Shown here piece after piece: positions 25,210 to 41,830 of a stretch of 41,830 nucleotides of DNA (positions are counted from its first letter, which is position 1; each line of letters begins with the position of its first letter). The notes beneath the pieces are model-generated. The model was not told where the DNA came from, made no database searches, and worked only from the letters and a program-made list of their open reading frames with translations. Made by a program: the position numbers and the translations under genes. This DNA comes from an uncultured Flavobacteriales bacterium (GTDB taxonomy: Bacteria > Bacteroidota > Bacteroidia > Flavobacteriales_D > Sanyastnellaceae), in assembly GCA_905479115.1 (NCBI GenBank), contig CAJQLF010000044.1:1-41830 (forward strand), given 5' to 3'.

Positions 25210-25245
25210 ATTTTTACGTTTTAGGAAGTGGAAGCTTTTCCTGTA

Positions 25246-28200
25246 ATGACCTGCAATTCAAACAAAAAGCCAAGCGAGTCTAGCTCGCACTTGCTGTATC
25301 CGTGCAAATTACCTCATTTTCGCAGGAAGTGTGCGGGTGCTGTGCTGTTGCTTTTGCTCTTCTTCCTTCCGGCGCAAGAAGGCAGGACTCAAGAGGATAA
25401 GCTCGTGGTGTTTGGAACGGTGAAATTGGATGAGAGCAGCAAAAAACTAGAAGGCGTTCGGGTGGTGGTGTACCAAGATGACGTTGAATTCGATGCCATC
25501 ATGACAGATTTGAAGGGAGGATATGAATTTGACTTGCCCTTGCGCCATAACTATACGTTCAGTTTTGAATTTGAGGGTCACGGGAATAAACGGATCGCGG
25601 TAGATGCCTCGGGCATACCATTGGATGTTACGGGAGCGCGCAACATGGATTTGGACATGAGCATGATGCCTTTGCCGGCTGGATTTGATGCGTCGATTTT
25701 TGAAGATTTTTATGGCAAAGGCGAGTACGATGCGAATAAAAACACAGTGAGTTTCGATAGCAACTACACGGTGAGGATGCGCAATAAAGTGAATGCTGAA
25801 CTGGCTCGGCTGGAACGCATGGCAGGACAGGAAGAGGAAATGCGTGAGAAGTTTGAAGACTTTGTCCAGAAAGGAGATCGATCCAAGTCAGCGAAGGAGT
25901 GGCAAAAGGCTGTCGACTTCTACGATTCAGCTTTGGCGCTGTTTGCAGATGAAGCTGATGTAATCGCGAAACGAGAAGCAGCTCAACGTGGATTGGATCA
26001 AGCGAATGCGGCGAATGCGGACGAGGCAGCCTTCGAATCCCTTCTCGAGGAAGCAGAGGATGCGCTGAAGCGAGACCGGCTTCAGGAGGCAAGAAGCGGG
26101 TTTGAATCAGCCGCCACCATGCGGCCGGACTCGCCTGAGCCATTGGATGGTTTGCAGCGAGTGAATGACCGTGAGGCGGCGTTAGAGAACTCGTCAGAAG
26201 CAGATGAGGAGTACAATGAATTGGTGGAGGATGGGGATATTTATTTCGAGCGGGAGCAATGGGACAGAGCAATCGGTAAATTCACTGAAGCCAGCGCCTT
26301 GATGCCCAACGAAAGCTATCCATTAAACCGGATTGAAGAAGCGCAAACTCGGCAAGCAGATCTCGCCGCTCAAGCGGCAGATATTATTGCGCGGACCATA
26401 GAGTATGAGGCGCTGGTCGATCAGGCGAATTTGCTTTACAAAGAGGACAACTATGCCGCCGCTTTGATCCAATACGAGGCAGCTGGAAGCGTGTTGCCCG
26501 CAGAGCGATTTTGGCAGCAGCGAGCAGAGGCTTGCCGAGAACGAATTGCTGAAGCGGACGCCAGTGGTTCAGGGCGCAAAGACCGGGAGGCCGCGGAGGC
26601 CGAGCGAGAGGCGGCCCTGGCCCAAGAGCGTGAACAACGTCAGCAGTACGAAGCGTTGAATGATGAAGCAGACGAGTTGTTTCGTGCAAATGAATATGGC
26701 GCAGCAATCGAAAAATATGGAGAGGCATCTCGCTTATTTCCAGATGAGCGGTATCCGAAGCAAAGGATAAACGAGGCGGAGAAAAGGAGGGCCCGCGCAG
26801 CTGATGCGGCAGCGTCGGATGCGGAGGATAATGCGCAGGAATACCTGCCCGAAGAACCAGACGCCCCGAACAGCGAATCTGCTCAAGCCTATGCAGAGGA
26901 AGAAGAAGGGGATGCAGCTGCAGCTGCTCAGCGCAAGGCCCGTGAAGCGGCTGAACTTGCGGCCCGCACCGAAGCGGATCAAGTCGAGGCTGCTTACGAT
27001 GGGGCTATCGCAGAAGCAGATGCCGCGTTCGATCGTTCCGATTGGGACTTGGCCAGACGGAATTATGAAGAGGCTTTGGCCTTAAAACCCAGTGACCGTT
27101 ACGCGAAATCCCGCATCGACCGAATTGAACGTGAAATGACGAGGTCCACTGAGGAGGTGTTAACGCGACAAACAGGTGCTTCCCAAGCGGACTTGGACTT
27201 GGAGCGCGAGGCCATGGAACGTGAGAGCACAAATGAAGCGGCAGAATTGGCGCGAGCAGCGGCTTCAATGGTAGCACAGCAGCTCGCCGATGAGGAGGTG
27301 CTTAAAGCTCAGGAGGACGCTGAAAAATTAGAACGGGCGAAAAAAGAACGTCGACGTGCGGAGCAATTGGCTGCTCAATTAAACGTGACGGAAGAGGATG
27401 AGGTTGAGGCGTATTACAGAGAGGCCCTGGAGAGTGAAGCCCTTGCGCGCGAGCTCGAGATAGAGCGCAAAAAATCGGCACAGAGTGAGCTCATAGGCGA
27501 TGCGGCGAACAAGGCTCAGGAACGCGTGGATCGCGAATTAGATAATCAAAACGATATGTTGCGTCAAGATGCAGCTATGCGCGAGTCGGGATTGAATCAG
27601 CAAGAAATCAGAAGGGCGAATCAGGCTCGACAGGTAGAAGAATTTGAATCGAACGCTGCCGCGTCTAGAACTGCTGGAAATGAACAGATTGAGCAGGGTG
27701 CAGATCAAGTTCAGCAACAAAAAAGGCGGCGAGACCGATTGCGGACCTCGAGATCCCAAGATTACACGTTGAATGTTCCAGAAGTTGAGGCGAAAAAGCG
27801 ATCCTTGAGGAACTTTTTTAACGGCTTGTCCAAGGCTTCTGATGATCGACGCGTCGAAGCAAGAGCTCAGGCCGAGAGTTCTGCTCGGAAGTACAGACGA
27901 CTTGGGGATGGGTCGAATGAGCGAGCACAGGAAAGATGGCTTGCTGCCCGAAGAAAAGCCAAACAGGTGGAACGACAAATGCAAGCGAGAGAGCAAGAGG
28001 CTCGACAGCGAGCTTACAATGAGAAGAAAGCTGCGGAGAGCAATTTGCGAGAAGTGGGGCCGCGGGACCCGGCTGACTTTAAGTTAGCGGAGGGGGATGA
28101 AAACGTGGCGCAAGGTGTTCACGAGGAGTCATATGACATTCCCAATGGTCTGGTGATTGAACGCACAGTGCGCAGCGGTAACTTGGTTGTTCGGTACCGT

Positions 28201-28296
28201 AAGGTGGTGACCAAGACCGGTATTTATTATTTTAGAGGGGACCGCAGTATTACTGCGGAAATATGGCGCCGGGAAACAACGGTGATCCTCGATTGA
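25246..28296 (+). CDS. Large secreted protein with carboxypeptidase-like domain, six TPR-like repeats and long coiled coil
   Basis: The product has about 1016 residues. A hydrophobic signal (about 29-49, cut near GRTQ) follows a long polar n-region. Next comes a carboxypeptidase-regulatory/CNA-like beta domain (about 52-125: VFGTVKLDESSKKLEGVRVV). Six TPR-like repeats with the pattern A..LF+...W..A...Y..A..L.P...Y...RI span about 210-628, separated by Ala/Glu/Arg-rich linkers. A long charged coiled coil (about 630-955) leads to a C-terminal beta domain (963-1016: GLVIERTVRSGNLVVRYRKV). I chose ATG 25246; GTG 25228 and a TTG nearer the signal are alternatives. Its stop overlaps the TonB-like start as TGATG. 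I infer a periplasmic scaffold; function is unknown. Confidence 0.8.
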   Translation: MTCNSNKKPSESSSHLLYPCKLPHFRRKCAGAVLLLLLFFLPAQEGRTQEDKLVVFGTVKLDESSKKLEGVRVVVYQDDVEFDAIMTDLKGGYEFDLPLRHNYTFSFEFEGHGNKRIAVDASGIPLDVTGARNMDLDMSMMPLPAGFDASIFEDFYGKGEYDANKNTVSFDSNYTVRMRNKVNAELARLERMAGQEEEMREKFEDFVQKGDRSKSAKEWQKAVDFYDSALALFADEADVIAKREAAQRGLDQANAANADEAAFESLLEEAEDALKRDRLQEARSGFESAATMRPDSPEPLDGLQRVNDREAALENSSEADEEYNELVEDGDIYFEREQWDRAIGKFTEASALMPNESYPLNRIEEAQTRQADLAAQAADIIARTIEYEALVDQANLLYKEDNYAAALIQYEAAGSVLPAERFWQQRAEACRERIAEADASGSGRKDREAAEAEREAALAQEREQRQQYEALNDEADELFRANEYGAAIEKYGEASRLFPDERYPKQRINEAEKRRARAADAAASDAEDNAQEYLPEEPDAPNSESAQAYAEEEEGDAAAAAQRKAREAAELAARTEADQVEAAYDGAIAEADAAFDRSDWDLARRNYEEALALKPSDRYAKSRIDRIEREMTRSTEEVLTRQTGASQADLDLEREAMERESTNEAAELARAAASMVAQQLADEEVLKAQEDAEKLERAKKERRRAEQLAAQLNVTEEDEVEAYYREALESEALARELEIERKKSAQSELIGDAANKAQERVDRELDNQNDMLRQDAAMRESGLNQQEIRRANQARQVEEFESNAAASRTAGNEQIEQGADQVQQQKRRRDRLRTSRSQDYTLNVPEVEAKKRSLRNFFNGLSKASDDRRVEARAQAESSARKYRRLGDGSNERAQERWLAARRKAKQVERQMQAREQEARQRAYNEKKAAESNLREVGPRDPADFKLAEGDENVAQGVHEESYDIPNGLVIERTVRSGNLVVRYRKVVTKTGIYYFRGDRSITAEIWRRETTVILD

Positions 28297-29030
28297 TGCA
28301 GTTGGGTCGGGGAACGTCCAATCGTTTTTGGGTCGCTCTTTGTTTGACCTTGCTGGTTCACGCCATCGTCCTAAGCGCATTTTGGATGCAGCCTGCTGGA
28401 ACATCACGGATAGAAACTTCGGATTTCGTCGATGTAGAATTTGCAGAAATGAACTTCGCTCAAGCAGAATTGCCGTCTCTGGAAGAGCAATTGCAAAGTC
28501 GACTAGACGAACGGATTGCCAACCTGGTGTCGGATGCAAACGCCAGCACCGCCAGTGACCGGAAGTCAACTTCCGCCGGCGCAGAGGAGCGGGAGATGGC
28601 CGATGAAGTCGAAGCAGAACTTCGGGCAATGGAGCAAGCGGAATTTGATCGCTTGGCAGCTCAAAAAAAGGAATTCGGTCTGGAGGGTGTTCCGGATGAC
28701 GGTGAGCACACCGAGGTCAACACCCTGTCCGAATGGGACAAGCGTTATGACGGCAAGGTTATCGTGTCGTACGATGCAATAAACCGGAACCATGTGCATT
28801 TGCCGGTGCCGGGTTATTTGTGTCTGCGCTCTGGTACGGTCGTGGTGGAGGTTCTCATTGGATTGGATGGCACCGTCGAAAAGCCCCGGGTGGTCCAATC
28901 TTCGGAAGGGGAAGGAGCAGAATGCATGGAAGAGGTCGCGATGAAGGCGGCGCGCCGCACGGTCTTCAATGCGCGCACCGATGTTGACCAAACGGGGACG
29001 ATTACGTACCGGTTTGTTGCCCAACGGTAG
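28296..29030 (+). CDS. TonB-like energy transducer with C-terminal TonB domain
   Basis: This protein of about 244 residues has one N-terminal membrane helix (about 11-31: FWVALCLTLLVHAIVLSAFWM). A periplasmic helical, Glu/Ala-rich stretch (about 45-130) stands where TonB proteins often have a proline-rich spacer. A C-terminal TonB domain (about 165-244) reads SGTVVVEVLIGLDGTVEKPRV, CMEEVAMKAARRTVFNAR and GTITYRFVAQR. It could couple inner-membrane energy to an outer-membrane receptor. The ATG at 28296 overlaps the upstream TGA (TGATG); an ATG at 28263 would add eleven residues. The coupling indicates that it works with the large TPR protein. No ExbB/ExbD or receptor gene is nearby. Confidence 0.82.
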   Translation: MQLGRGTSNRFWVALCLTLLVHAIVLSAFWMQPAGTSRIETSDFVDVEFAEMNFAQAELPSLEEQLQSRLDERIANLVSDANASTASDRKSTSAGAEEREMADEVEAELRAMEQAEFDRLAAQKKEFGLEGVPDDGEHTEVNTLSEWDKRYDGKVIVSYDAINRNHVHLPVPGYLCLRSGTVVVEVLIGLDGTVEKPRVVQSSEGEGAECMEEVAMKAARRTVFNARTDVDQTGTITYRFVAQR

Positions 29031-30434: not shown

Positions 30435-31607
30435 TCAGTAACCGATTTGCCTTGAGCGCTTTACCCTTTGGCCATTCCACCATTTGGAGCGATCGCCAAA
30501 ACGTCCCATGCGCTGTTCCCCTCCGCCTTGCCAAGGATCCGTATTGAGGATATGCCAATCGCAATCCGGACAAAAGAATCGTTTTCGAATGGCCGTGGGG
30601 AAGTACATCGTGAAATTAAGTTCGTGCGCACCTCCTGTCCCAGGTGTCAATTGCGAGAAGGTCAAATCATAGCTGTAGCCAAATTTCCAATTCACCGTCT
30701 CCGTCCCGATGTATGCCATCGTCGCATCTCGGTAACTTGTCCCGATCAATCCACGGTACCAGAGCCCCAATGAAAATGTCATTCTCGAGTCCCGGATGAA
30801 TCCCCGCGGTTCAATCTCAAAATTTGCTCCGCTCATGACCAATGTTTGGTCCCCTTGTTGGTGAAAAATCACCTGCGGTTGAAGCGTTGATTCCAAGTTA
30901 GGTCTGCTGTTAACAGGAATAGAACCGCTAACATGAGATGTGAGCTTGATGGGAATAATGCTGACGCTGGTGCCCCCTGCAACACTTTCATTCGGCTCAT
31001 TCAAATGTGCGGCTGCGAACCCGAAAGACCATTTTTTTGAATGAAAAAGAGCTCCAGCACGGAAATCACTTCCTTTGACAAATCCTTCTCTGTAAATGTC
31101 TTGCGTGGTGAAGATGAACCCTTGACTGGGGTCAATCATATCGCGAAAGCTCAACTTATTCCAATCCAAGTTCCGTTGAAAGTAAGCTGCTTCCAGCGCC
31201 AAGTTCAAGTACCAGCCTTCGGTAATTTTTGTGCGAAAATTGTAAGCTGCAGCCACCGAAGTGGAACTCAGTGTTCCTTTGCCCGCATCATCCTTGAGCA
31301 CGCGAACAGCTAGGCCGCCATGGAGCGAACGAACATAGGAGTCCAAAGCAATGCCGGATGTGACATACGCACCGCTCATTGCGGGCCACTGATTCCTGTG
31401 GGAGAGAACCAAGCGAGGTGAGGGTACGATATTTCCTTGAACACCATAGGATCCTGCATAGGCAGGGTTAAGGTGGACAGGGTTATTAAAAAACTGAGTA
31501 AACTCGGGGTCTTGGGCGAATGTCAGGAGCCAAGAACATGCCATCAGGAAAGCGAGGCTTTGCCTAAGAGCTGGTTTATATATGAATTGACCTCGCAATA
31601 AAAACAT
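30435..31607 (-). CDS. PorP/SprF-family T9SS outer-membrane protein (copy 1)
   Basis: The 390-residue protein has a signal peptide (LAFLMACSWLLTFAQ) followed by DPEFTQFFNNPVHLNPAYAGS, the hallmark PorP/SprF N-terminus. The rest consists of alternating beta strands of a 14-strand-type barrel (VVPSPRLVLSHRNQWPA-like strands, SFGFAAAHLNEPNES, AHELNFTMYFP). A C-terminal tail of about 45 residues (CPDCDWH..., tryptophan-rich and basic) extends beyond the barrel. PorP/SprF proteins help anchor or export specific T9SS type B substrates. It diverges from the type B substrate gene across 84 bases that carry an 11-bp inverted repeat. ATG 31607 keeps a long n-region; ATG 31544 is a shorter alternative. 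Confidence 0.9.
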   Translation of the reverse strand: MFLLRGQFIYKPALRQSLAFLMACSWLLTFAQDPEFTQFFNNPVHLNPAYAGSYGVQGNIVPSPRLVLSHRNQWPAMSGAYVTSGIALDSYVRSLHGGLAVRVLKDDAGKGTLSSTSVAAAYNFRTKITEGWYLNLALEAAYFQRNLDWNKLSFRDMIDPSQGFIFTTQDIYREGFVKGSDFRAGALFHSKKWSFGFAAAHLNEPNESVAGGTSVSIIPIKLTSHVSGSIPVNSRPNLESTLQPQVIFHQQGDQTLVMSGANFEIEPRGFIRDSRMTFSLGLWYRGLIGTSYRDATMAYIGTETVNWKFGYSYDLTFSQLTPGTGGAHELNFTMYFPTAIRKRFFCPDCDWHILNTDPWQGGGEQRMGRFGDRSKWWNGQRVKRSRQIGY

Positions 31608-31611
31608 CGAG

Positions 31612-31687
31612 GAAATATAGAACTAAAAAATTTCCTGACATAATACTCATCTTACTGATTGAATTTGTTTTATACTTTCTATATTTC
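31612..31687. repeat. 11-bp inverted repeat flanking the divergent PorP/T9SS-B start region
   Basis: GAAATATAGAA (31612-31622) and TTCTATATTTC (31677-31687) are exact reverse complements. Each lies 4-5 bases before the ATG of its gene (31607 on minus, 31692 on plus). The placement makes them identical 5' leader segments for the two divergent genes and possible sites for a shared regulator. Confidence 0.55.
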
Positions 31688-31691
31688 GAGG

Positions 31692-34600
31692 ATGAAGTAT
31701 TCGATTTTGAAAAAAATGCTCCTGATCAGCCTCGGGACCATATTTTCTTTAGGGTCGAATGCTCAATCGCTCAATGCCGGCTTTATGACCATCCCTTCAT
31801 TTGCGAACGGTCAGTTGATTATTTGTGTTGGTGAACCTGTCGCTTTTATCAACACAACTATTGGGGAGGGGCCTCTTGCTACCTATGCTTGGGACTTTGG
31901 TTTTGGGGCGAGTCCCCCGACCTCTTCATTGGAAGGTCCTGTATTGGTGACGTACAATTCAGTCACTCCAGGGACCACAGCAACGTTGTTGGTGAACAAC
32001 AACGACGGTTCGGGCACCTCTTCGTTCTCCATTTCGATCGAGGCAATTGAATCGCCTTTATCTGAATTGAGCCTGAGCCCTATTTCGACCGACTACACGG
32101 CATCGGAAGAGAACGGCATGCTCACTTTTGTTCGCTGCAATTCCAATTCACCGCAGCCTTTTTCGCTCGTTTCCTCGTACGATAATTCCATCAGCCAATC
32201 ATTTGATTGGGGCGATGGGTCGCCCGATTCGGATGAATCTGCTTTGGTGGCTGGCATCATTGAGCACACTTATCCCGTTGGTGATTTTGTTTTGGAGCAT
32301 ACTGTTGCGTTTGCAAATGGATGCACCGATGTTAGGCTCTACCGAATATTCAATGGGAGTGCTCCCATTGTGACTGTGTCCGGGTCTGGACAAAACACCT
32401 GCACACCGTCTACCTTTGAAGTGGATATTATTTCCAATAATGTGCCAATTGACTACACGGTTAGTTACTCCGATGTCACGGATATCCTTGATTTCAGCAC
32501 AGCAAGTGATACGACGCTGCAGCATATCTTTTTTGATAACTCTTGCGGGGAACAATACGTGATTTCCCCGCTTTTACCGCCCATAGAAAATGCCTTCTCT
32601 GCGACGTTAATTGCGGCGAATCTGTGCTCTGTGAACGGAATTCCAACTGTGGTGACCATTGGTCCGATTACTGTTTCCTCCGCTCCTGAAGCGATGATTT
32701 TACCGGTTCCGGCGGGGCCAATTTGTCAAGAAGAGTCGGTCTTAATGTCAAGTGTCGGACCGAATGGACAGACCGTGACCATTGATGGGTGCAATGACAC
32801 AACCATGACGCACTGGACGGTTGAAGAACCCACTGGGTATGAGGTTGAGCTGGGGGAACTGGGCTCCTCCAATGGCGCAACGGGAGAAGACTATAGCTTC
32901 GGGATGTGGACCCAGGGTTCGGAAGTGATCTCATTGAATTTTGGGGACCCTGGTACCTACAACGTGTGGCTTCATGTTGGAAGCGGCTGTGGGGAAGATT
33001 CAATTTTATATCCGGTTGTTGTGAATCCGTTTGGCAGCGTTTCTCCAAATACCATGTCCAGCACGATTTGCAGCGGAGACACGGTAAACCCAATCACATG
33101 GACTTCTTCTCAACCAAGCTATTTGATTACGTGGAATGCCGATGTGGACAACGGACTGAACGGGGTTGAACCTCCCATGGGCATTGGACTCGGTCCTCTG
33201 CAATCTCCCGATAGCTGGGCCGTAGAGAATACAACCGACGAGGTCCAGTACATCGAAGTCACGGCGAATGTTGGGTGCACATCCAATGGCGATGCGGTTT
33301 GGACCATCGCTGTCTACCCTCAAATCAATTTGGAGAAGGAATCCTTGGACGGTCCCGTCTGTTCAGGAGAGGATTGGCAAGTTGAGGTAGGTACCAACGT
33401 GTCCGGGGTGGAATTGGCTTGGACGGCCGATGTGCCGGATGGCGTCTTGGGATGTTACCCAGGAACCGGGGATGTGATTGATGAGCAATTGATTAATTCC
33501 ACCAATGAACCGCAAACAGTGACATACACTCTTGTCACTCCAAATGAAGTGTGTCCAATGGATCCGTCTGAGTATGAAGTTATTGTGCTTCCTCAGGTCA
33601 TTGTTCCGGCCATTGATGACTTGACTTTTTGCCCCGATGAGGAAGTCGAAATTCCGAACTATGATTTGCCGATTGACGGATTGATATGGAGTTGGGAAAA
33701 TAACAATACCGACGTTGGATTAGGGGCCTCAGGGAATGGTATCCTTGACAGCTTCGGTGCGGAGGCCAATGATACCGGTGGAGCCATTACAGGCACGGTA
33801 ACGGTCGCTGTTGAGCAAGCAGACTGCCCAGTGGAAACGACGACTTTTGACCTGACCCTTTTCCCTTCGCCAGAAGCTTCTTTTGAGGTGGGGCCGAATG
33901 GCGGTGTCAGTTGCGTGGACGGGCTTGCGACCATTTCGGCGACGACTACCGCGGCGAATCCACAATTTGTTTGGGATGGATCGAATGTGGTTTCTTCGAA
34001 TGGAGGTGTCGCAGAGGTTGAAGGCGAAGGCATCTATGAAGTGACGGTGCTCGACGGTGTGACCGGATGCGCCTCCTTGTTCGAGGTTGAGGTATTGCCA
34101 CCTGACCCCATGGACATTGCGGCAATTGATTTCGTGCCTCCGAATTGCTTTGGAGGAAGCGACGGTTGGATCGACGTGCTCACGAACGAATCCACAGCGT
34201 TGAGTTACGCATGGACGCCGAGTGGAATTGACGCGGATGGAGGATATGCGGAGTCACTTTCAAGCGGAATTTACACCGTCGTGGTCTCCAATGGGTCTGA
34301 CTGCCAAGATTCAGCGACCATCGAGCTGGTCGATTTCGATCCTTTGATGCTGATGCTGGTTGAAACGGTGGATTCTGAATGCGGGGAAGCCAATGGCTCA
34401 ATTGAGGTGGTTGCTTCCGGCGGACAAGGAGGGTACGCTTACCAATGGGGGCTATTTCAAAACAATGCATTGCTCGACGGGGTTGATGCGGGATTGTACG
34501 ATGTTGAAGGAACCGATGCAGGAGGGTGCGAAGTCGAGGGAACGTTTGAAGTAGCTTGTTACCCATTGACCCCGGTCATTCCAAGTCAACTGCTCACTCC

Positions 34601-34862
34601 GAATGGCGACGGGTTCAACGATGCATGGGTGGTAGAGTACCTGTGGATGTATCCGGACAACAACGTTAAAGTGTTCAATCGGTGGGGTACCCAGGTGTTC
34701 GAAGCGGAACCGTATGACAACAATTGGGCGGGAACATGGGATCCGGCATTGGGGAGTGCAAAACTGCTTCCGGCGGGCACGTATTATTACCTCATTGATA
34801 CGCGAAAAAAGTCGCAAAAGCCTTTCCGGGGATTTCTTGAACTTCAACACGAGCAGCGATGA
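31692..34862 (+). CDS. PKD-domain surface protein with gliding-motility-type (type B) T9SS C-terminal domain
   Basis: The 1056-residue protein has a signal peptide (MKYSILKKMLLISLGTIFSL, cut near SNAQ). PKD-like Ig domains appear at about 64-75 (YAWDFGFGASPP) and 171-180 (FDWGDGSPDS). Several cysteine-containing CHU-type Ig modules follow, and SprB-like segments near 816-920 (NCFGGSDGWIDV and ASGGQGGYAYQW). The final 90 residues are the type B CTD: LLTPNGDGFNDAW, VKVFNRWGTQVFEA, and AGTYYYLIDT. The domain directs outer-membrane export by T9SS, and type B substrates commonly need a PorP/SprF partner. The next gene is such a partner, overlapping by four bases (ATGA). I chose ATG 31692; the longer frame begins at TTG 31659. 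Confidence 0.9.
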   Translation: MKYSILKKMLLISLGTIFSLGSNAQSLNAGFMTIPSFANGQLIICVGEPVAFINTTIGEGPLATYAWDFGFGASPPTSSLEGPVLVTYNSVTPGTTATLLVNNNDGSGTSSFSISIEAIESPLSELSLSPISTDYTASEENGMLTFVRCNSNSPQPFSLVSSYDNSISQSFDWGDGSPDSDESALVAGIIEHTYPVGDFVLEHTVAFANGCTDVRLYRIFNGSAPIVTVSGSGQNTCTPSTFEVDIISNNVPIDYTVSYSDVTDILDFSTASDTTLQHIFFDNSCGEQYVISPLLPPIENAFSATLIAANLCSVNGIPTVVTIGPITVSSAPEAMILPVPAGPICQEESVLMSSVGPNGQTVTIDGCNDTTMTHWTVEEPTGYEVELGELGSSNGATGEDYSFGMWTQGSEVISLNFGDPGTYNVWLHVGSGCGEDSILYPVVVNPFGSVSPNTMSSTICSGDTVNPITWTSSQPSYLITWNADVDNGLNGVEPPMGIGLGPLQSPDSWAVENTTDEVQYIEVTANVGCTSNGDAVWTIAVYPQINLEKESLDGPVCSGEDWQVEVGTNVSGVELAWTADVPDGVLGCYPGTGDVIDEQLINSTNEPQTVTYTLVTPNEVCPMDPSEYEVIVLPQVIVPAIDDLTFCPDEEVEIPNYDLPIDGLIWSWENNNTDVGLGASGNGILDSFGAEANDTGGAITGTVTVAVEQADCPVETTTFDLTLFPSPEASFEVGPNGGVSCVDGLATISATTTAANPQFVWDGSNVVSSNGGVAEVEGEGIYEVTVLDGVTGCASLFEVEVLPPDPMDIAAIDFVPPNCFGGSDGWIDVLTNESTALSYAWTPSGIDADGGYAESLSSGIYTVVVSNGSDCQDSATIELVDFDPLMLMLVETVDSECGEANGSIEVVASGGQGGYAYQWGLFQNNALLDGVDAGLYDVEGTDAGGCEVEGTFEVACYPLTPVIPSQLLTPNGDGFNDAWVVEYLWMYPDNNVKVFNRWGTQVFEAEPYDNNWAGTWDPALGSAKLLPAGTYYYLIDTRKKSQKPFRGFLELQHEQR

Positions 34863-35779
34863 TGAACCGAACGACCAGAATCCTTGGAGTGATTGTGGCA
34901 TTGCTCGCTGCGCCTTTTGCTTGGAGTCAGCAGGATGCTCAATTATCGATGTACCTGCGGAATCCCATTCAGTTCAATTCTGCCCATGCGGGAACAAACG
35001 GTGTGTTGCGAACCATGGTCATCAATCGCGCCCAGTGGGTCGGATGGGAAGGAGCGCCAAGGACCCAATGGGTTTCGGCACATGCACCCATCTTGAGGAA
35101 TCGGATGGGCGTGGGAATTACCGCCTTGAAAGACCAGAGCGGTGCCCGTGGTCATGCGGAGTTTATGGGCCATTTTGCCTATTACTTTCCTAAGCCGATA
35201 CACGGATTCAACTTGACGACAGGCTTGTCTCTAGGCGTCCAGAGCAACCGGTTTGATTTTAGTCAATTGCACGTGTCCGATCTCAATGACCCTCTGCAGG
35301 CCGCACCTTATAAAGAAGCAGCGTTCAACGCTGGATTTGGTGCAATGGCGTATAAGGATGATTGGTATGTGGGACTTTCCATTCCGCATCTCTTGGAGCA
35401 ATCCATGGGTTTTCAGGGGTCTGGCCCGGTTCAACGGAGGCACTTGTATCTCATGACGGGCTACATCCATCGGATTAACAGCGCAGTCGACCTTCGAGGT
35501 GTCTGCATGGTCAAGAAAGTCTCAGGTGCGCCCTTTGCAATGGACGTGGGTGTAGAAGCTTGGTTTATGGAACGGTATAGCATTGGGACCATGATGCGAT
35601 GGAAAGAAGGCTTCGGGTTTCAATTGAGTTACTATATCGATGAGTCATGGCGCGTTTACTATGCGGTGGACTTTCCTTTGAATGGTTTGGCCAATCGAAA
35701 TTTTGGGTCACACGAAATAGGCGTTTCTTGGGATTTTGGATTTAAGAGAACGGCCTATCAAAGCCCACGATATTTCTAA
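34859..35779 (+). CDS. PorP/SprF-family T9SS outer-membrane protein (copy 2)
   Basis: The 306-residue protein begins MMNRTTRILGVIVALLAAPF with a cut near AWSQ. It then has QDAQLSMYLRNPIQFNSAHAGT, matching the PorP/SprF consensus apart from NSAHAG in place of NPAYAG. Strands of a barrel follow (FMGHFAYYFPKPIHGFNLT, GFGFQLSYYIDES), ending in SHEIGVSWDFGFK. The start ATG overlaps the TGA of the type B surface protein (34859-34862), and the stop overlaps the next ATG (TAATG at 35777-35781). SprF of flavobacteria is needed for surface display of the SprB adhesin encoded beside it, so this protein probably anchors the PKD protein upstream. Confidence 0.92.
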   Translation: MMNRTTRILGVIVALLAAPFAWSQQDAQLSMYLRNPIQFNSAHAGTNGVLRTMVINRAQWVGWEGAPRTQWVSAHAPILRNRMGVGITALKDQSGARGHAEFMGHFAYYFPKPIHGFNLTTGLSLGVQSNRFDFSQLHVSDLNDPLQAAPYKEAAFNAGFGAMAYKDDWYVGLSIPHLLEQSMGFQGSGPVQRRHLYLMTGYIHRINSAVDLRGVCMVKKVSGAPFAMDVGVEAWFMERYSIGTMMRWKEGFGFQLSYYIDESWRVYYAVDFPLNGLANRNFGSHEIGVSWDFGFKRTAYQSPRYF

Positions 35780-37968
35780 TGAAGTACGCACTCTACGTTC
35801 TGCTCTCCTTTGGGATTTGGCAATGCAGCTGGGCTCAATTTTCCCGCCAAGACATGGCAAGTGAATTGATGCTGCGATGGAAATATGCAGATGCCTATCC
35901 ACTTTGGATGGACTTGGCGGTTGATCCCACGTATGCCGACTCGGTGCGAGAAGATTTTATGCGGATGGCAGCCCAATCGGCTCTAAGCGCAGATTTACTC
36001 ACGGAAGCGGTTGATTGGAATGCTGCGATCATTGCCACGGGCCATGGAGAGCCAGAGGACTGGCTCAGGCAGCTGGATTTACTTTGCCTTCAGAACCGAT
36101 ACGATGAAATTGAAGAGTCGATTGGAATGGCCCTCGACCAATTTCCAGACAATCCAGGGTTGTTGCGATGGAAAGAGGGCGTTTCCGGTCTGATCCAATT
36201 GGTGCGGGATTCGACCGCTTTCACGGTGGAACCGCTTCGTCCACAGTCGAGTGCAGAAGAGTTCTCAGCGTATCCGTTTCAAAACGGATTGGTTTTCATG
36301 AGCACGGGATTGAACGCAGGATTTATTCCCATGCAAGACGGTTGGACGGGACAGTATTACACAGAGTTAACGTGGATTGAAGATGTGAAGGAGCCTTTCC
36401 GAGAGTACACCTGGTTCGAGCAAATTCGAAATCAAGATCTGTTCGGTGCCTTTGGCCATTCTCGATTGCATGATGGGCCCGTTGCATTCGACGCAGACGA
36501 GGATTTTGCTGTGCTAACTCGAAATCATGAGGACATTGACGTCTCTGAAAACGTTTCTCGCTCGAGACTGAAGCTTGAATTTTATCGATGGATTCCAGAG
36601 CTTGAAGAATGGGAGCGGAGGCCAGATGACTTGTTTCCTTGGAATTCCCCTCTGTATTCTTGTGCGCATGCTGTTTTCGACCTGAATGACGACTTGGTTT
36701 TTTCAAGTGATCGTCCAGGTGGTTTCGGTGGAATGGACCTCTACAGTTCAAAGTGGGAAGATGGTCAATGGTCGGAGCCGCAAAATTTAGGTCCAGTTGT
36801 CAATACGGACCAAGACGAAGTTTTCCCTTTCGTATCCCAAACGGGAGCGGTTTTTTTCAGTTCGAATGGCCACCCTGGAGCAGGAGGATTGGACATTTTT
36901 ATCTATCGCGAAGGTGCAGCAAGACTAGAACGACTGGGCTATCCCATCAATTCTAATCTGGATGATTTCGCCTTTGTTTTTGACGAGACAAAGGGCAGCG
37001 GTTGGCTGTCATCGAATAGAATGGAATCCAAGGATGCCATTTTCAGCGTCAATGGGAATCCCTCTGCTGGGAAATTGACGGTGCATGTGCAAGCATGCGA
37101 CGGTTCGCCAATTGTGGGCATTGACGTAATTGCTGAAGACCAATTTGCGGGGTCGGCAACGACTGCGCAAACGGATGAGGACGGAAATGCGCAATTCATT
37201 GCCATCCGAAACCGGACGTATACCCTGACAAGTCAAGTGTTAGAAGGGATGGATTCTCCGCCAGAATTGGAGCTGGTAATGCAAGATGTCGATTCCATGG
37301 GAACGGTACTGGATTTTAATTTCAAGCGCCAACCCAATCGCTTGACGGTTGTTGACCTCGAGGGAAACCCCTTGAACAACGCAATGCTCTCGTTCGAAAA
37401 CGAACAGAAAAAGCGCCTCAACCGCGTGACCAATTCGGAAGGTGTTTTTGAGTGGGATGACGAGATCAGCATGGACTTCATGGCGGTGCATGTTTCGATG
37501 ATCAATTATTGGGACGGTTACCAGGGTTTTGAGCAACCTCCATCGGGTTGTCTATTGTCGATTCAAAAGACCGTTACGCTGCGTCCCCGAACGGAAGAGT
37601 CGGAGGTGATTAACTTAGAAAACATCTATTACGATCTGGACAAAGCGTTGCTGAGAGCCGAAGGCAAGAGTGAGCTCGATAAGCTGGTTCGGTATATGTC
37701 GGACGAGAAGTACCGCACTTTTCGCGTGGAATTGTCTTCGCATACGGATTCTAGAAATTCGGATGCTTACAACAAAGATTTGTCCCAACGTCGCGCTCAA
37801 AGTTGCGTAGACTATATCATTGCCAAGGGCATTGACCCGATCCGGATTATCGCGAGGGGATATGGCGAGAGTCAATTGGTCAACCGCTGTGCTGATGGGG
37901 TAGCATGCACTGAAGATGAGCATCAAGCAAATCGGAGAACAGAATTAAGGTTGTTGCCGGATGAGTGA
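35779..37968 (+). CDS. PorE-like OmpA-family protein with PD40 propeller
   Basis: The 729-residue protein has a signal peptide (cut near CSWAQ; its Cys16 is not in a lipobox). Order of parts: helical TPR-like N-terminus (about 20-140), a PD40/WD40-like propeller (about 150-400, with SSDRPGGFGGMDLYSSKW and FSSNGHPGAGGLDIFIY), two carboxypeptidase-regulatory/CNA-like domains (about 430-600), and a C-terminal OmpA domain (about 614-729). The OmpA part has IYYDLDKALLRAEGKSELD and SHTDSRNSDAYNKDLSQRRA, the peptidoglycan-binding signature. This layout matches PorE of the P. gingivalis T9SS, which links the outer-membrane machinery to the cell wall. It is coupled to the PorP/SprF gene and overlaps the giant gene by eight bases. 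Confidence 0.92.
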   Translation: MKYALYVLLSFGIWQCSWAQFSRQDMASELMLRWKYADAYPLWMDLAVDPTYADSVREDFMRMAAQSALSADLLTEAVDWNAAIIATGHGEPEDWLRQLDLLCLQNRYDEIEESIGMALDQFPDNPGLLRWKEGVSGLIQLVRDSTAFTVEPLRPQSSAEEFSAYPFQNGLVFMSTGLNAGFIPMQDGWTGQYYTELTWIEDVKEPFREYTWFEQIRNQDLFGAFGHSRLHDGPVAFDADEDFAVLTRNHEDIDVSENVSRSRLKLEFYRWIPELEEWERRPDDLFPWNSPLYSCAHAVFDLNDDLVFSSDRPGGFGGMDLYSSKWEDGQWSEPQNLGPVVNTDQDEVFPFVSQTGAVFFSSNGHPGAGGLDIFIYREGAARLERLGYPINSNLDDFAFVFDETKGSGWLSSNRMESKDAIFSVNGNPSAGKLTVHVQACDGSPIVGIDVIAEDQFAGSATTAQTDEDGNAQFIAIRNRTYTLTSQVLEGMDSPPELELVMQDVDSMGTVLDFNFKRQPNRLTVVDLEGNPLNNAMLSFENEQKKRLNRVTNSEGVFEWDDEISMDFMAVHVSMINYWDGYQGFEQPPSGCLLSIQKTVTLRPRTEESEVINLENIYYDLDKALLRAEGKSELDKLVRYMSDEKYRTFRVELSSHTDSRNSDAYNKDLSQRRAQSCVDYIIAKGIDPIRIIARGYGESQLVNRCADGVACTEDEHQANRRTELRLLPDE

Positions 37969-40900
37969 AACGCGAAATGCTTTTAACAAGGGGGTGCTGG
38001 CTCTCTTCATGAGCTTGGCTCTCTCTGCGGTATCCTTGGGACAAGAAACCTGTGAGGCTTTCTGTGATTCGTTAGATCTGTCCATTTCGTTTGATTCTGC
38101 TGACAACTGCAATCTGTCTTTTTCGTTCGCGGTATCTGATTCTCTTGCAGCGATGGTGGATACCACTTCCACTTGGACCTGGATCTTGGACGGTGATACA
38201 CTGGGCTTGGGAAGTGATAGTTTGCTGACAATCAATGACGAGCAAATTCAAGGTGGCGAATTTCTGTCGTTGCATTTTGAGGTAGACTTGGGTGATTCAC
38301 TGGGACTCTGCGGGTGCGCTGAGAATGTGGACTTGGTCGCCCTAACCGATGATTTCGATTGGTCTTGTGGGTGTGAGCCTGAAGGGGAGCCTCTTGCAAA
38401 TTTTGATGTTATAGGAGAAGGCCAATGTGGAGACGTGCCTGTTCTATTTGACAATGAATCAAGTGGATTCGGACTTGATTTTAATTGGGAATTTGGTTCA
38501 GGAGGAATCTACGGTACATCGGAACTCAGCAGCCCAGAAGTTCAAATTATTGTGGACGGAGGAGGGACGTCAAATGTGCCTGTAACGTTGACTGTTACGG
38601 ATGCAAATGGATGTTCCGATTTCATGACGGAGATGGTACAGGTACTCCAAGTACCTAACGCTGGTTTAGAACCAGTGACGGCCCTTTGCCTTAGTGATTT
38701 GACTTGGCCAAACTATGCAATCACGCTCTTTCCTCAGCCTTTTGGAATTAGTGGAATTGCATCATTGACGGTGGATTGGGGAAATGGAACAGACACGACA
38801 TTTACGCCGGCTCTGCCATTTATTGAAATGTTGTCTACACCTTACAACGAATTTGGAGAGTACATCATAACGGTCGAGGCAACAGGAAATAATGGCTGCC
38901 AGAGTGCAACGGCGGGGGAGTTATTCGTAGGAAATAATCCGCAAATTGGCACGGCAAACCCCGGCAACACGGATGGCCTTTGCAGTCCCTATCAATTAAC
39001 CTTTCCGATCACCAATTTCGAGTCCAACGCGTTTGGAACAGATTATACGGTCAATTTTGGTGATGGCACACCAACGGAGGTTTTTTCTCACCCTCCTCCA
39101 GAATTTGTGAACCATGACTACACCGTTGCATCGTGTGGTTCAACGACCCCCTTGAACAGCCACAATGCATTTTATTTCCAAGTAAATGCCTCGAATGCCT
39201 GCGGAACGTCCATTGCGTATATCGATCCCGTGCGGATTCATCAAGCTCCGGATCCTGTAATCAATGGCCCAACACCTGTATGTGAGGACCTGAACATTTT
39301 ATATCAGATTTCGGGAAATGGCATTCAAGTTTACGATTGTGCTCCGGGTGATCCCCTTCCAGGAAACGACCCTGCATGCGATGGTGCCGGCGGAGATTGT
39401 TGCCCCGGTGGAGATGGCTGCGTGGACAACAGCGGATACTGGTTCACCAGCCCGCTTCAAGGTCAAGGAGCTTCCATTCCTTCTTCGGCAGAGGGGTTAA
39501 ACCTGAATGTAACCTTCCCAGATGCTGGACTTTATTTGCTGAATTATATTGAAAGCCACGATTACTGTCCAACCGGATATGCGGCCAAACAGGTTTGTGT
39601 ATTTCCTGAGTTGGAACCCGAATTGGCTTATTCAACGGACGGCCAATGTTTTCCGATGACAGTCGATTTACAGGATATAACCGAGGCGCTGCCTTGCGGC
39701 AGCCCTTTCATTGAGTGGGTCATTGAAGGAGGTTCATATGTGTGGGCGGCAGGCAGCGACGAGCACTCGCAAAATCCTACGCTCGTTTTGCTAGACAAGG
39801 CGCTTTATTCAATCACCCTTGAACACTCCGTGCCTGGGTCGAAGTCCAACGTTTGTGGTGTTTACACGGAGACGACCTTCATAGAGGTCAATGGTCCTCC
39901 GATTTTGGAACTCTCTGAGGATGTTATGCAATGTGAAGAAGAGGTGGTTGAGGCACAAATTGTATCATTGGATGACTGCGGTGCTCCAATTGAATTGATT
40001 GAATGGAGCATTGCAGGAGTTGTGGAGGCGCTTGATGTCACCTCACAAGAATTCAGCTTTCCAGCGGGGGGCGTTTACAGCATCGACGTGGAGGCAATCA
40101 ATGCGTGTGGCAGTGATACTGAATCGATCATGGTCGAAATCCAGGAGAATCCGGTATTGACGCTGACAACCAATCCTGAGGGTGGTGTTTGCAGTGGTGA
40201 TCAAGTAACATTTCAAGTGTCGGGTGCTGAAGTTTACAGCTGGAATCTCAACCAACCCCCTCTTGTAGCAGCAGGCAATGAGCTAACATTGAATCCGGAC
40301 GCGGACGTTGTAGGAAATGTCACCGGCGTAACGACGTATTCGACTTTGTCGTGCAGCTCTACATTGGCCTTTGATTTTGAGGTTTTTGAGCTACCTGAAC
40401 TCACTGTTGATGCCCCTGACTTCGTGTGCATAGGTGAGGAATTTTCGGCCTCTGCGGAAGTCACAGGGGGGCAGCCAGAATATATCGTGCAATGGACTTT
40501 TGGCGCGAGTCAAGGCGAAGGTGACTTTTTCAGCATCACAACGGAGTCGGAAGGAACGTTTCCTTTCGCTTTTGAGGTCGTGGATGACCGAGGCTGCGAA
40601 GGTTTTTCGAATTATGAACTTGAAGTGCTCCCGCTGCCAGCAGTGGAAGCGGGCTCAGACCTCGTCCTTTGCAATCAGGATTACGCTGTCAACCTTGATG
40701 ACTATTCGCCGCTTGGAGGCAATTGGTTTGGAACAGGAATCATTGATGGGCAGAACGGCCTATTCAATCCGGATGGTTTGACCGCTGGAGTATACCAATT
40801 AGATTATGAGTTTGTTGACGAATTTGGTTGTTCAAACCTCGACACCCTGAACATTCAAGTCGATGATCCCATTGTAGCTGATGCGGGTGATGATGTATTC

Positions 40901-41830
40901 ATTTGTGAAGCGGATAGCATTCTCTTACTGGTTGGATACTATCCCAGTGAGTCTGTTACTTGGAGTGGTCCCGCGTTGACCGGTGACTCCAGTTCAATTG
41001 ATTTGTCCGAACTAACGCCGGATACTTATGTCTACACCATTTCGACCGGAGTGGAGTCTTGTGAAACCCAGGACGAACTAATCTTACAGGTGCTTCAACG
41101 GCCAGAAGTGAATCTCAACGGCCCCGCAGCTCTATGCCAGGGTGAACTTGGATTCATTGAGGTTGAAATCTCTGGTGGATTGGAGCCTTACTTCATTCAA
41201 TGGTTGTCAGATGTAGACCTTGAGTCCTCAGATGGCTCCGTTGTTTCATTCAGTTCGACTGAAGTAGGACTCCTCGAACTGGAAGTGCTGGTGATCGATA
41301 GCAACGGATGTGCGACTTACACTTCGCTTTCTTTGGAAATTATTGAGCTTCCAGATGTCTTTGCTGGAAATGATATGGAGGTGTGCTTGCAAGATTCTCC
41401 AGCACAAATTGAAGGCACTTCGCCGGGGCTCAATGAAAATGGTACAGGGCTATTTCTTGGCTTAGATGAAGCAGCTGGAGCTGTTACTGCAGATGGTCTT
41501 TTTGATCCATTGTGGGTAGGAATCGGTGTGTATCAGGTCGAATATGTGTATACAGATGCGACGACGGGTTGCTCAGATTCCGATACGGTCGAGGTGACGG
41601 TAATTCCAGACCTGCTTGTTACGCTTCAGCCATTGGATACGAGCTACTGTCAGTTTGCGAGTCCTGTGATTCCGTTAGAGGTTATAGCCGATGGCGGCAC
41701 GGGTACGTACAGCTACCAGTGGTTTGTTTCGACGACTGCATCGAATACGGCCGGCGTAGCGATTATTGGCGCTACGTCTTCTTCGTATGTCCCACCGGTT
41801 GACGTGGTGGGCACGCTTTACTACTACTGC
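37961..41830 (+). CDS. Giant secreted PKD/Ig-like multidomain protein, 3' end outside window
   Basis: A frame of exactly 1290 codons runs from ATG 37961 to the window edge with no stop; I read it through codon by codon. A signal peptide (about 10-31, cut near SLGQ) is followed by a cysteine-rich N-terminal domain. PKD-like units include FNWEFGSGG (about 174), VDWGNGTD (about 271) and VNFGDGTP (about 364). A Cys/Gly/Asp-rich insertion lies at 460-487. CHU-type Ig modules follow, two with a shared GTG...LFxPxxxxxGVYQ pattern. The visible end (YSYQWFVSTTASNTAG... to LYYYC) is another Ig-like repeat. It overlaps the PorE-like gene by eight bases. The full protein probably ends in a T9SS sorting domain outside the window. 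Confidence 0.88.
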   Translation, partial: MSETRNAFNKGVLALFMSLALSAVSLGQETCEAFCDSLDLSISFDSADNCNLSFSFAVSDSLAAMVDTTSTWTWILDGDTLGLGSDSLLTINDEQIQGGEFLSLHFEVDLGDSLGLCGCAENVDLVALTDDFDWSCGCEPEGEPLANFDVIGEGQCGDVPVLFDNESSGFGLDFNWEFGSGGIYGTSELSSPEVQIIVDGGGTSNVPVTLTVTDANGCSDFMTEMVQVLQVPNAGLEPVTALCLSDLTWPNYAITLFPQPFGISGIASLTVDWGNGTDTTFTPALPFIEMLSTPYNEFGEYIITVEATGNNGCQSATAGELFVGNNPQIGTANPGNTDGLCSPYQLTFPITNFESNAFGTDYTVNFGDGTPTEVFSHPPPEFVNHDYTVASCGSTTPLNSHNAFYFQVNASNACGTSIAYIDPVRIHQAPDPVINGPTPVCEDLNILYQISGNGIQVYDCAPGDPLPGNDPACDGAGGDCCPGGDGCVDNSGYWFTSPLQGQGASIPSSAEGLNLNVTFPDAGLYLLNYIESHDYCPTGYAAKQVCVFPELEPELAYSTDGQCFPMTVDLQDITEALPCGSPFIEWVIEGGSYVWAAGSDEHSQNPTLVLLDKALYSITLEHSVPGSKSNVCGVYTETTFIEVNGPPILELSEDVMQCEEEVVEAQIVSLDDCGAPIELIEWSIAGVVEALDVTSQEFSFPAGGVYSIDVEAINACGSDTESIMVEIQENPVLTLTTNPEGGVCSGDQVTFQVSGAEVYSWNLNQPPLVAAGNELTLNPDADVVGNVTGVTTYSTLSCSSTLAFDFEVFELPELTVDAPDFVCIGEEFSASAEVTGGQPEYIVQWTFGASQGEGDFFSITTESEGTFPFAFEVVDDRGCEGFSNYELEVLPLPAVEAGSDLVLCNQDYAVNLDDYSPLGGNWFGTGIIDGQNGLFNPDGLTAGVYQLDYEFVDEFGCSNLDTLNIQVDDPIVADAGDDVFICEADSILLLVGYYPSESVTWSGPALTGDSSSIDLSELTPDTYVYTISTGVESCETQDELILQVLQRPEVNLNGPAALCQGELGFIEVEISGGLEPYFIQWLSDVDLESSDGSVVSFSSTEVGLLELEVLVIDSNGCATYTSLSLEIIELPDVFAGNDMEVCLQDSPAQIEGTSPGLNENGTGLFLGLDEAAGAVTADGLFDPLWVGIGVYQVEYVYTDATTGCSDSDTVEVTVIPDLLVTLQPLDTSYCQFASPVIPLEVIADGGTGTYSYQWFVSTTASNTAGVAIIGATSSSYVPPVDVVGTLYYYC
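39338..39421 (+). other. Cys/Gly/Asp-rich insertion in the giant PKD protein
   Basis: Residues about 460-487 contain five cysteines with spacing C-x11-C-x6-CC-x5-C in a sequence rich in Gly, Asp and Pro (GDPLPGNDP, DGAGGDCCPGGDG). The flanking Ig-like strands lack this composition. It could be a disulphide-locked or calcium-binding loop. Confidence 0.5.

Follow-up and report, generated by a model that had tools for sequence, protein, structure and literature searches.

A head-to-head locus in an uncultured Flavobacteriales bacterium may pair a wall-fixed with a track-linked surface protein

The 41,830-nucleotide stretch analyzed here (the window) is the entire contig C44 (CAJQLF010000044.1) of an uncultured Flavobacteriales bacterium whose genome (GCA_905479115.1; here G000) comprises 2.27 Mb on 69 contigs. 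Toward the end of the window four overlapping genes, A to D, stand head to head with a fifth on the opposite strand (Table 1). Genes A, B and C encode a type B substrate of the type IX secretion system (T9SS), a PorP/SprF-family barrel and a PorE-like protein; gene D is the 5' part of a very large repeat protein, and the divergent gene encodes a second PorP/SprF-family barrel that was absent from a first-pass annotation of this DNA. The A-B-C triple in all likelihood comprises a substrate, the PorP that anchors it and a PorE-like tether to the wall. For the locus as a whole we favor a reading in which it encodes one wall-fixed and one track-linked surface protein, although the chances for and against that complete picture are about evenly balanced.

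In the proposed mechanism, the T9SS would export the gene A protein, whose sorting domain would pass to the PorP barrel B, holding the protein at the cell surface. The periplasmic tail of B, which ends in SPRYF, would be gripped by the PorE-like protein C, and the OmpA domain of C would bind peptidoglycan, leaving A fixed and wall-anchored. The divergent PorP, with its Cys-Pro tail, would shuttle the very large protein D; its tail cysteine could bond the track protein GldK, making D track-linked and probably mobile. Three of these elements are known from relatives, namely the PorE-PorP-substrate complex, peptidoglycan binding by PorE and the SprF-GldK disulfide; we infer that the SPRYF tail of B docks C and that D moves along the track. 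A more tentative generalization is that the C-terminal tail of PorP/SprF proteins might be an address label, PR[YF]F leading to PorE and the wall and Cys-Pro to the GldK track, with this locus encoding both, each with its own sorting-domain class. Were this so, a single stretch of DNA would produce one stationary and one mobile surface protein, which might let the cell alternate between holding and gliding.

Gene content of the locus

Table 1. Features of the head-to-head locus (window coordinates)
Feature	Position	Strand	Basis
Divergent PorP/SprF-family outer-membrane barrel, 390 amino acids, alpha clade	30435..31607	minus	PF11751 155.6 bits, TIGR03519 185.6 bits
FCPDCD tail motif (Cys346, Cys349) of divergent PorP	30558..30575	minus	conserved in orthologues
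Upstream region common to divergent PorP and gene A, 84 bp	31608..31691		sequence
Gene A, secreted PKD/SprB-repeat protein, 1,056 amino acids, type B T9SS substrate	31692..34862	plus	PKD, SprB, CHU_C, TIGR04131
Type B sorting domain (CHU_C) of gene A, beta class	34584..34844	plus	PF13585
Gene B, PorP/SprF-family shuttle and anchor, 306 amino acids, beta clade	34859..35779	plus	PF11751 181.4 bits, TIGR03519 197.3 bits
SPRYF C-terminus of gene B, proposed PorE-docking tail	35762..35776	plus	PR[YFH]F pattern in PorE-adjacent PorPs
Gene C, PorE-like wall linker, 729 amino acids	35779..37968	plus	Pfam, moderate-confidence model, Foldseek
OmpA_C peptidoglycan-binding domain of gene C (Asp657, Asn665, Arg672)	37627..37899	plus	triad conservation
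Gene D, 5' part (1,290 codons) of very large PKD/Ig-repeat protein	37961..41830	plus	cut by contig end

The first-pass annotation had described four overlapping genes on one strand, and direct reading of the sequence bears this out: each starts with ATG, A and B overlap by ATGA (34859-34862), B and C by TAATG (35777-35781), and C and D by 8 bases (37961-37968), with D open to the last base. All three junctions are present in G015 and G005, which match the closest named records (JAQBTQ010000003.1, a Bacteroidetes metagenome-assembled genome [MAG], and DBBR01000015.1, Flavobacteriales bacterium UBA979, respectively). G020 keeps the A/B and B/C junctions, G013 keeps the 8-base C/D overlap, and the C/D overlap of G029 is 4 bases. 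Since the junctions recur in these five relatives, the overlaps are, on sequence grounds, not due to chance; a 29-base gap between C and D in G008 counts against their conservation. The divergent PorP gene lies 84 bases upstream of gene A, and the same facing arrangement is found in G005, G015, G020 and G029.

The domains of A, B and C agree with the surface protein, PorP/SprF anchor and PorE-like linker named in the first-pass annotation, although gene A, which it had called giant, is of the more modest length given in Table 1. Gene A scores about 85.6-90.2 bits for CHU_C/PF13585 (cut-off, 27) and 51.8 bits for TIGR04131 (cut-off, 35), and has a signal peptide as judged by eye, as befits a type B T9SS substrate. 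Both gene B and the divergent PorP score well over the TIGR03519 cut-off of 90.55 bits. In searches of PDB sequences, gene B had no match at E ≤ 1 and the divergent PorP a single chance-level match (E = 0.61).

Gene C is laid out as TPR helices, a beta-propeller, a CRD-like fold, an extra beta region and OmpA_C, which includes the domain order of PorE (TPR, beta-propeller, CRD-like fold, OmpA_C). Pfam (PD40, CarboxypepD_reg, OmpA) covers three of these four domains, while the N-terminal TPR-like helices (residues 36-144) are predicted by the structural model alone (mean predicted local distance difference test score [pLDDT], 65.5; predicted template modeling score [pTM], 0.49; used for coarse domain layout only). 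The first Foldseek match of the OmpA part is 6top, the C-terminal domain of PorE (38% identity). Asp657, Asn665 and Arg672 are invariant in 13 aligned rows and are spaced exactly as Asp576/Asn584/Arg591 of PorE, the OmpA-domain triad that binds peptidoglycan (PMC7192894). Because gene C scores 203.8 bits for the PorE family NF052230, under the cut-off of 600, we class it by sequence as PorE-like and not as PorE; another gene of the same genome (on C29) reaches 424.7 bits, also under the cut-off. By eye, gene C has no canonical lipobox, and its orthologues in G003, G008 and G017 have no cysteine ahead of the apparent end of the signal peptide.

Gene D is cut by the assembly, since the window spans the whole of contig C44. 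The equivalent G005 contig (L176) breaks at the same repeat, so the break was likely caused by the repeat. The protein in the D position of G015 is 3,344 amino acids long and has a C-terminal CHU_C domain. The first-pass annotation had made its proposal depend on D ending in a T9SS sorting domain; G015 D passes the CHU_C cut-off (35.7 bits vs. 27) and falls under that of TIGR04131 (24.2 bits vs. 35), and judged from this relative, D of the window probably has a type B sorting domain at its end as well. The N-terminal parts of the two D proteins differ, so their equivalence rests on position and shared repeats. Querying the genome of the window with the last 1,044 residues of G015 D returned no fitting piece for the missing end, and the contig end has no 25-base overlap with any of the loci compared. 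One candidate for the missing end, C53:51557-53194 (32% identity), was rejected because it lies inside a 2,144-amino-acid frame that is not at a contig end.

C-terminal tails of PorP/SprF proteins

The PorP family turned up in 11 of 46 genomes searched across the phylum, and 79 tails from this class-wide sample were tabulated, leaving out PorPs fused to long repeats (L281, L285) or to OmpA (L268, L269, L306), one with a non-standard end (L304), and a listed fragment (G095:C16). A PR[YFH]F end is found in 20 of the 24 PorPs adjacent to PorE-like genes and in 1 of the 55 others; a cysteine within the last 40 residues shows the reverse distribution (4/24 vs. 38/55), and many of the cysteine tails read CP[RKS]F. 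The four PorE-adjacent exceptions end in GPRFFN, SLRHF, PCGRF and CPRL. All 34 distinct PorE-adjacent PorPs in loci retrieved for their PorE-like genes end in PR[YFHR]F, none has a cysteine in the last 40 residues, and 32 are directly preceded by a type B substrate. L259 and L260, which are near PorE-adjacent rows on the PorP tree and are without an adjacent PorE, have a CxC tail instead. The natural reading of these sequences is that PR[YF]F is a PorE-docking tail, as proposed for gene B, which falls in the beta half of the tree.

The divergent PorP falls in the alpha half, grouped with Cys-tailed PorPs that include the C36 type, which is found next to a gene whose GldJ score, 442.9 bits, falls short of the cut-off of 458.2. 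Its model (pLDDT, 64.4; pTM, 0.65; used for coarse domain layout only) predicts 14-15 strands followed by an unstructured 55-residue tail past the last strand. This tail carries the pattern FCP[DGS]CD in all six divergent-PorP orthologues (G000, G005, G008, G015, G020, G029). In the SprF system, a Cys-X-Cys tail forms a disulfide with an invariant GldK cysteine, carrying the adhesin along the track (PMC12635249). Cys324 in GldK of the window's genome aligns with Cys356 of PorK, the PorG-linked residue.

Several unusual PorP genes were seen in the sample. Three genes of G095 (L268, L269, L306) encode a PorP/SprF barrel fused to an OmpA peptidoglycan-binding domain, each right after a type B substrate gene. 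The frames at L281 (1346-5929, genome G083; 1,527 amino acids) and L285 (4938-7850, G079; 970 amino acids) open with a PorP/SprF barrel and run on, as far as read, into repetitive or unrelated sequence. L188, from a Flavobacteriaceae genome, has two full substrate-PorP-PorE triples in tandem on one contig.

Sorting-domain classes

Wherever a type B substrate lay upstream of a PorP in the 11-genome sample, the two were treated as a pair, and each substrate was labeled by the half of the tree in which its PorP falls. Two class profiles were built from 52 such pairs (15 alpha, 37 beta), with the four pairs of the window's genome left out. The profiles are right for 52 of 52 pairs when one pair is left out and for 52 of 52 when one genus is left out, as well as for all five PorP-adjacent controls from G000 and G015. 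The sorting domain of gene A (alpha score, 43.6; beta score, 104.1) favors the beta class by 59-60 bits in both G015 and G000, and that of G015 D favors the alpha class by 16.6 bits. D would accordingly call for an alpha-clade shuttle, and one stands opposite the operon; we infer that D is paired with the divergent PorP.

Distribution among relatives

Orthologues of the divergent PorP (54-84% identity) are present in G005, G008, G015 and G020, i.e., in 5 of 22 genomes of the genus when the window's own is included; G029, which also has the divergent arrangement, belongs to a different genus. The divergent PorP is found in five of the six genomes with a readable D (G000, G005, G008, G013, G015, G029; missing in G013) and in none of the four in which gene C is present without a visible D (G002, G003, G017, G018). 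These four are partial MAGs (90%, 86%, 79% and 99% complete, respectively), so the absences are uncertain. In G020 the contig ends within gene C.

The first-pass annotation had also tied its proposal to a conserved gene order. This holds for A-B-C, which recurs across the order; it fails for D, the place of which is taken by an unrelated large protein in G003, G017 and G018, the three sister genomes with a readable slot, and 12 of the 22 genus genomes are without a match to gene C at E ≤ 1e-50. The unrelated protein is a choice-of-anchor-L protein by NCBIfam in G017 and looks alike by eye in G003 and G018.

These choice-of-anchor-L proteins follow the PorE-like gene at L052 (4687-6810), L053 (8398-12411) and L054 (7431-11417). 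The two complete ones, of about 1,330 amino acids, terminate not in a sorting domain but in an acidic EF-hand or dockerin-like motif.

Alternative explanations

A wall-fixed A and a track-linked D are supported by the PorP-OmpA fusions of G095, the PorE triad in gene C, Cys324 of GldK, the tail motifs, the class scores, the placement of B and the divergent PorP in opposite halves of the tree, and the co-occurrence of D with the divergent PorP. A number of points weigh against this interpretation. The five controls have larger margins (33-60 bits) than the alpha margin of G015 D, D could be carried by other alpha PorPs present in G015, and the class of D in the window is taken by position from this one complete relative, its own C-terminus being unseen. 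G013 (fragmented, 92% complete) has D and no divergent PorP was found in it. The tail of the divergent PorP is CPxC (C-X-X-C), unlike the CxC (Cys-X-Cys) of SprF, and 4 of the 24 PorE-adjacent PorPs have a tail cysteine and are without the exact PR[YFH]F end. The tail pattern also partly reflects shared ancestry: on the PorP tree the PorE-adjacent label changes 8 times and the PRxF label 5 times, and the Fisher value for tail against PorE adjacency (7.9e-14) overstates the evidence because PorE-adjacent PorPs cluster on the tree, with only 2 independent tail-PorE pairs on supported branches, which is not significant.

The first-pass annotation had proposed a single module, with A and D as clients of one dedicated anchor, B, tied to the wall by C. 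The overlapping genes, including the C/D junction kept in G005, G013 and G015, point this way, as do operons in which a single PorP-PorE pair follows two type B substrates (L177, L178, L179, L186) and the finding that shuttles can accept several substrates (PMC12618676). However, the sorting domains within L177, L178 and L186 share 62-69% identity, and in the two operons scored, L177 and L186, all are beta, whereas the sorting domains of A and G015 D are 24-34% identical (two alignments) and differ in class; based on these sequences D is unlikely to be a client of B. Moreover, crosstalk was reported at 68% identity and none with shuttles of C-terminal domains at 43% and 26% (PMC12618676), and the sister genomes keep A-B-C with an unrelated protein in place of D. 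We thus regard one shared module as improbable. A stronger contender, if still the less probable account, is that D, as an orphan type B substrate, relies in trans on a conserved alpha PorP (the C36 type beside the GldJ-like gene, or the C4 type), while the divergent PorP has another cargo. Pairing in trans must be common: G000 has 29 CHU_C matches (27 over the cut-off) and 7 PorP/SprF genes, so many type B substrates must share shuttles, and 33 of the 49 other sorting domains without an adjacent PorP in G000 and G015 are alpha-like. The lone D of G013 fits this account as well. Against it, only genomes retaining A-B-C have the divergent PorP, and D is present in all five of these with a readable fourth slot. 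Finally, gene C could serve envelope integrity in general, like CHU_0125, without binding B, and share the operon by position only. Its NCBIfam score is higher for CHU_0125 than for PorE (282.1 vs. 203.8 bits, both far below the cut-offs), but PorPs lie directly 5' of PorE-like genes in 34 distinct cases in the PorE-chosen loci and in 24 in the class sample, PorP-OmpA fusions exist, and a PorE-PorP complex has been shown in Porphyromonas gingivalis (PMC9143113), so that we consider this very unlikely.

Other features of the region

Within the region between the divergent genes (31608-31691), CTATATTTC sits a few bases before both start codons; it is also found 5' of gene A in G005 and is not clear in G015. 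Just upstream of the locus, a gene for a TPR/CRD-like protein of 1,022 amino acids (25228-28296) overlaps that of a TonB_C protein (28263-29030), and G005 and G020 have a large frame resembling the TPR/CRD-like protein near the same locus.

Comparison with known systems

The A-B-C triple is a known kind of operon, given the Flavobacterium johnsoniae operons, the P. gingivalis complex and the 34 PorE-adjacent PorPs in relatives. F. johnsoniae has five substrate-PorP-PorE-like operons (PMC12618676), and six of its porP-like genes adjoin porE-like genes (PMC9143113). The suggestion of the first-pass annotation that the coupled set may be undescribed does not extend to this core; the pairing with a second system does look new, as does a tail signature separating two anchors. 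The literature listings searched pointed to no report of a PR[YF]F PorP tail; one listed Flavobacterium paper (PMC5879114), not read further, contains one of the letter strings.

How type B proteins reach a static wall anchor or the gliding track is the question that the tail signature addresses. Pairing with a shuttle sets the destination of a type B surface protein, and five C-terminal domain motifs are insufficient for recognition (PMC12618676). A tail signature together with a class-predicting sorting domain would make the question testable by tail truncation or exchange, and would allow the destinations of many unstudied surface proteins to be guessed from sequence.

The closest F. johnsoniae counterpart, Fjoh_3952-3951-3950, has the same three genes in the same order, and its substrate is reported as static on the surface, with a proposed link to the wall via the PorE homologue (PMC12618676). 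The locus described here differs in having a fourth, very large substrate of a different sorting class and a facing, divergent Cys-tailed PorP. In P. gingivalis, the PG1035, PorP and PorE genes are scattered and PorE serves the core T9SS, whereas gene C is a separate PorE-like paralogue. The same three parts nevertheless form a PorE-PorP-PG1035 complex that was shown physically there, and PorE-linked cargo was proposed to be static (PMC9143113). Relative to SprB-SprF, the locus has FCPxCD in place of Cys-X-Cys and a shuttle that is divergent and four genes from its proposed substrate. It is like that system, with its SprF-GldK disulfide (PMC12635249), in combining a very large repeat protein with a barrel that would have a cysteine-bearing periplasmic tail, and the GldK cysteine is kept in the window's genome.

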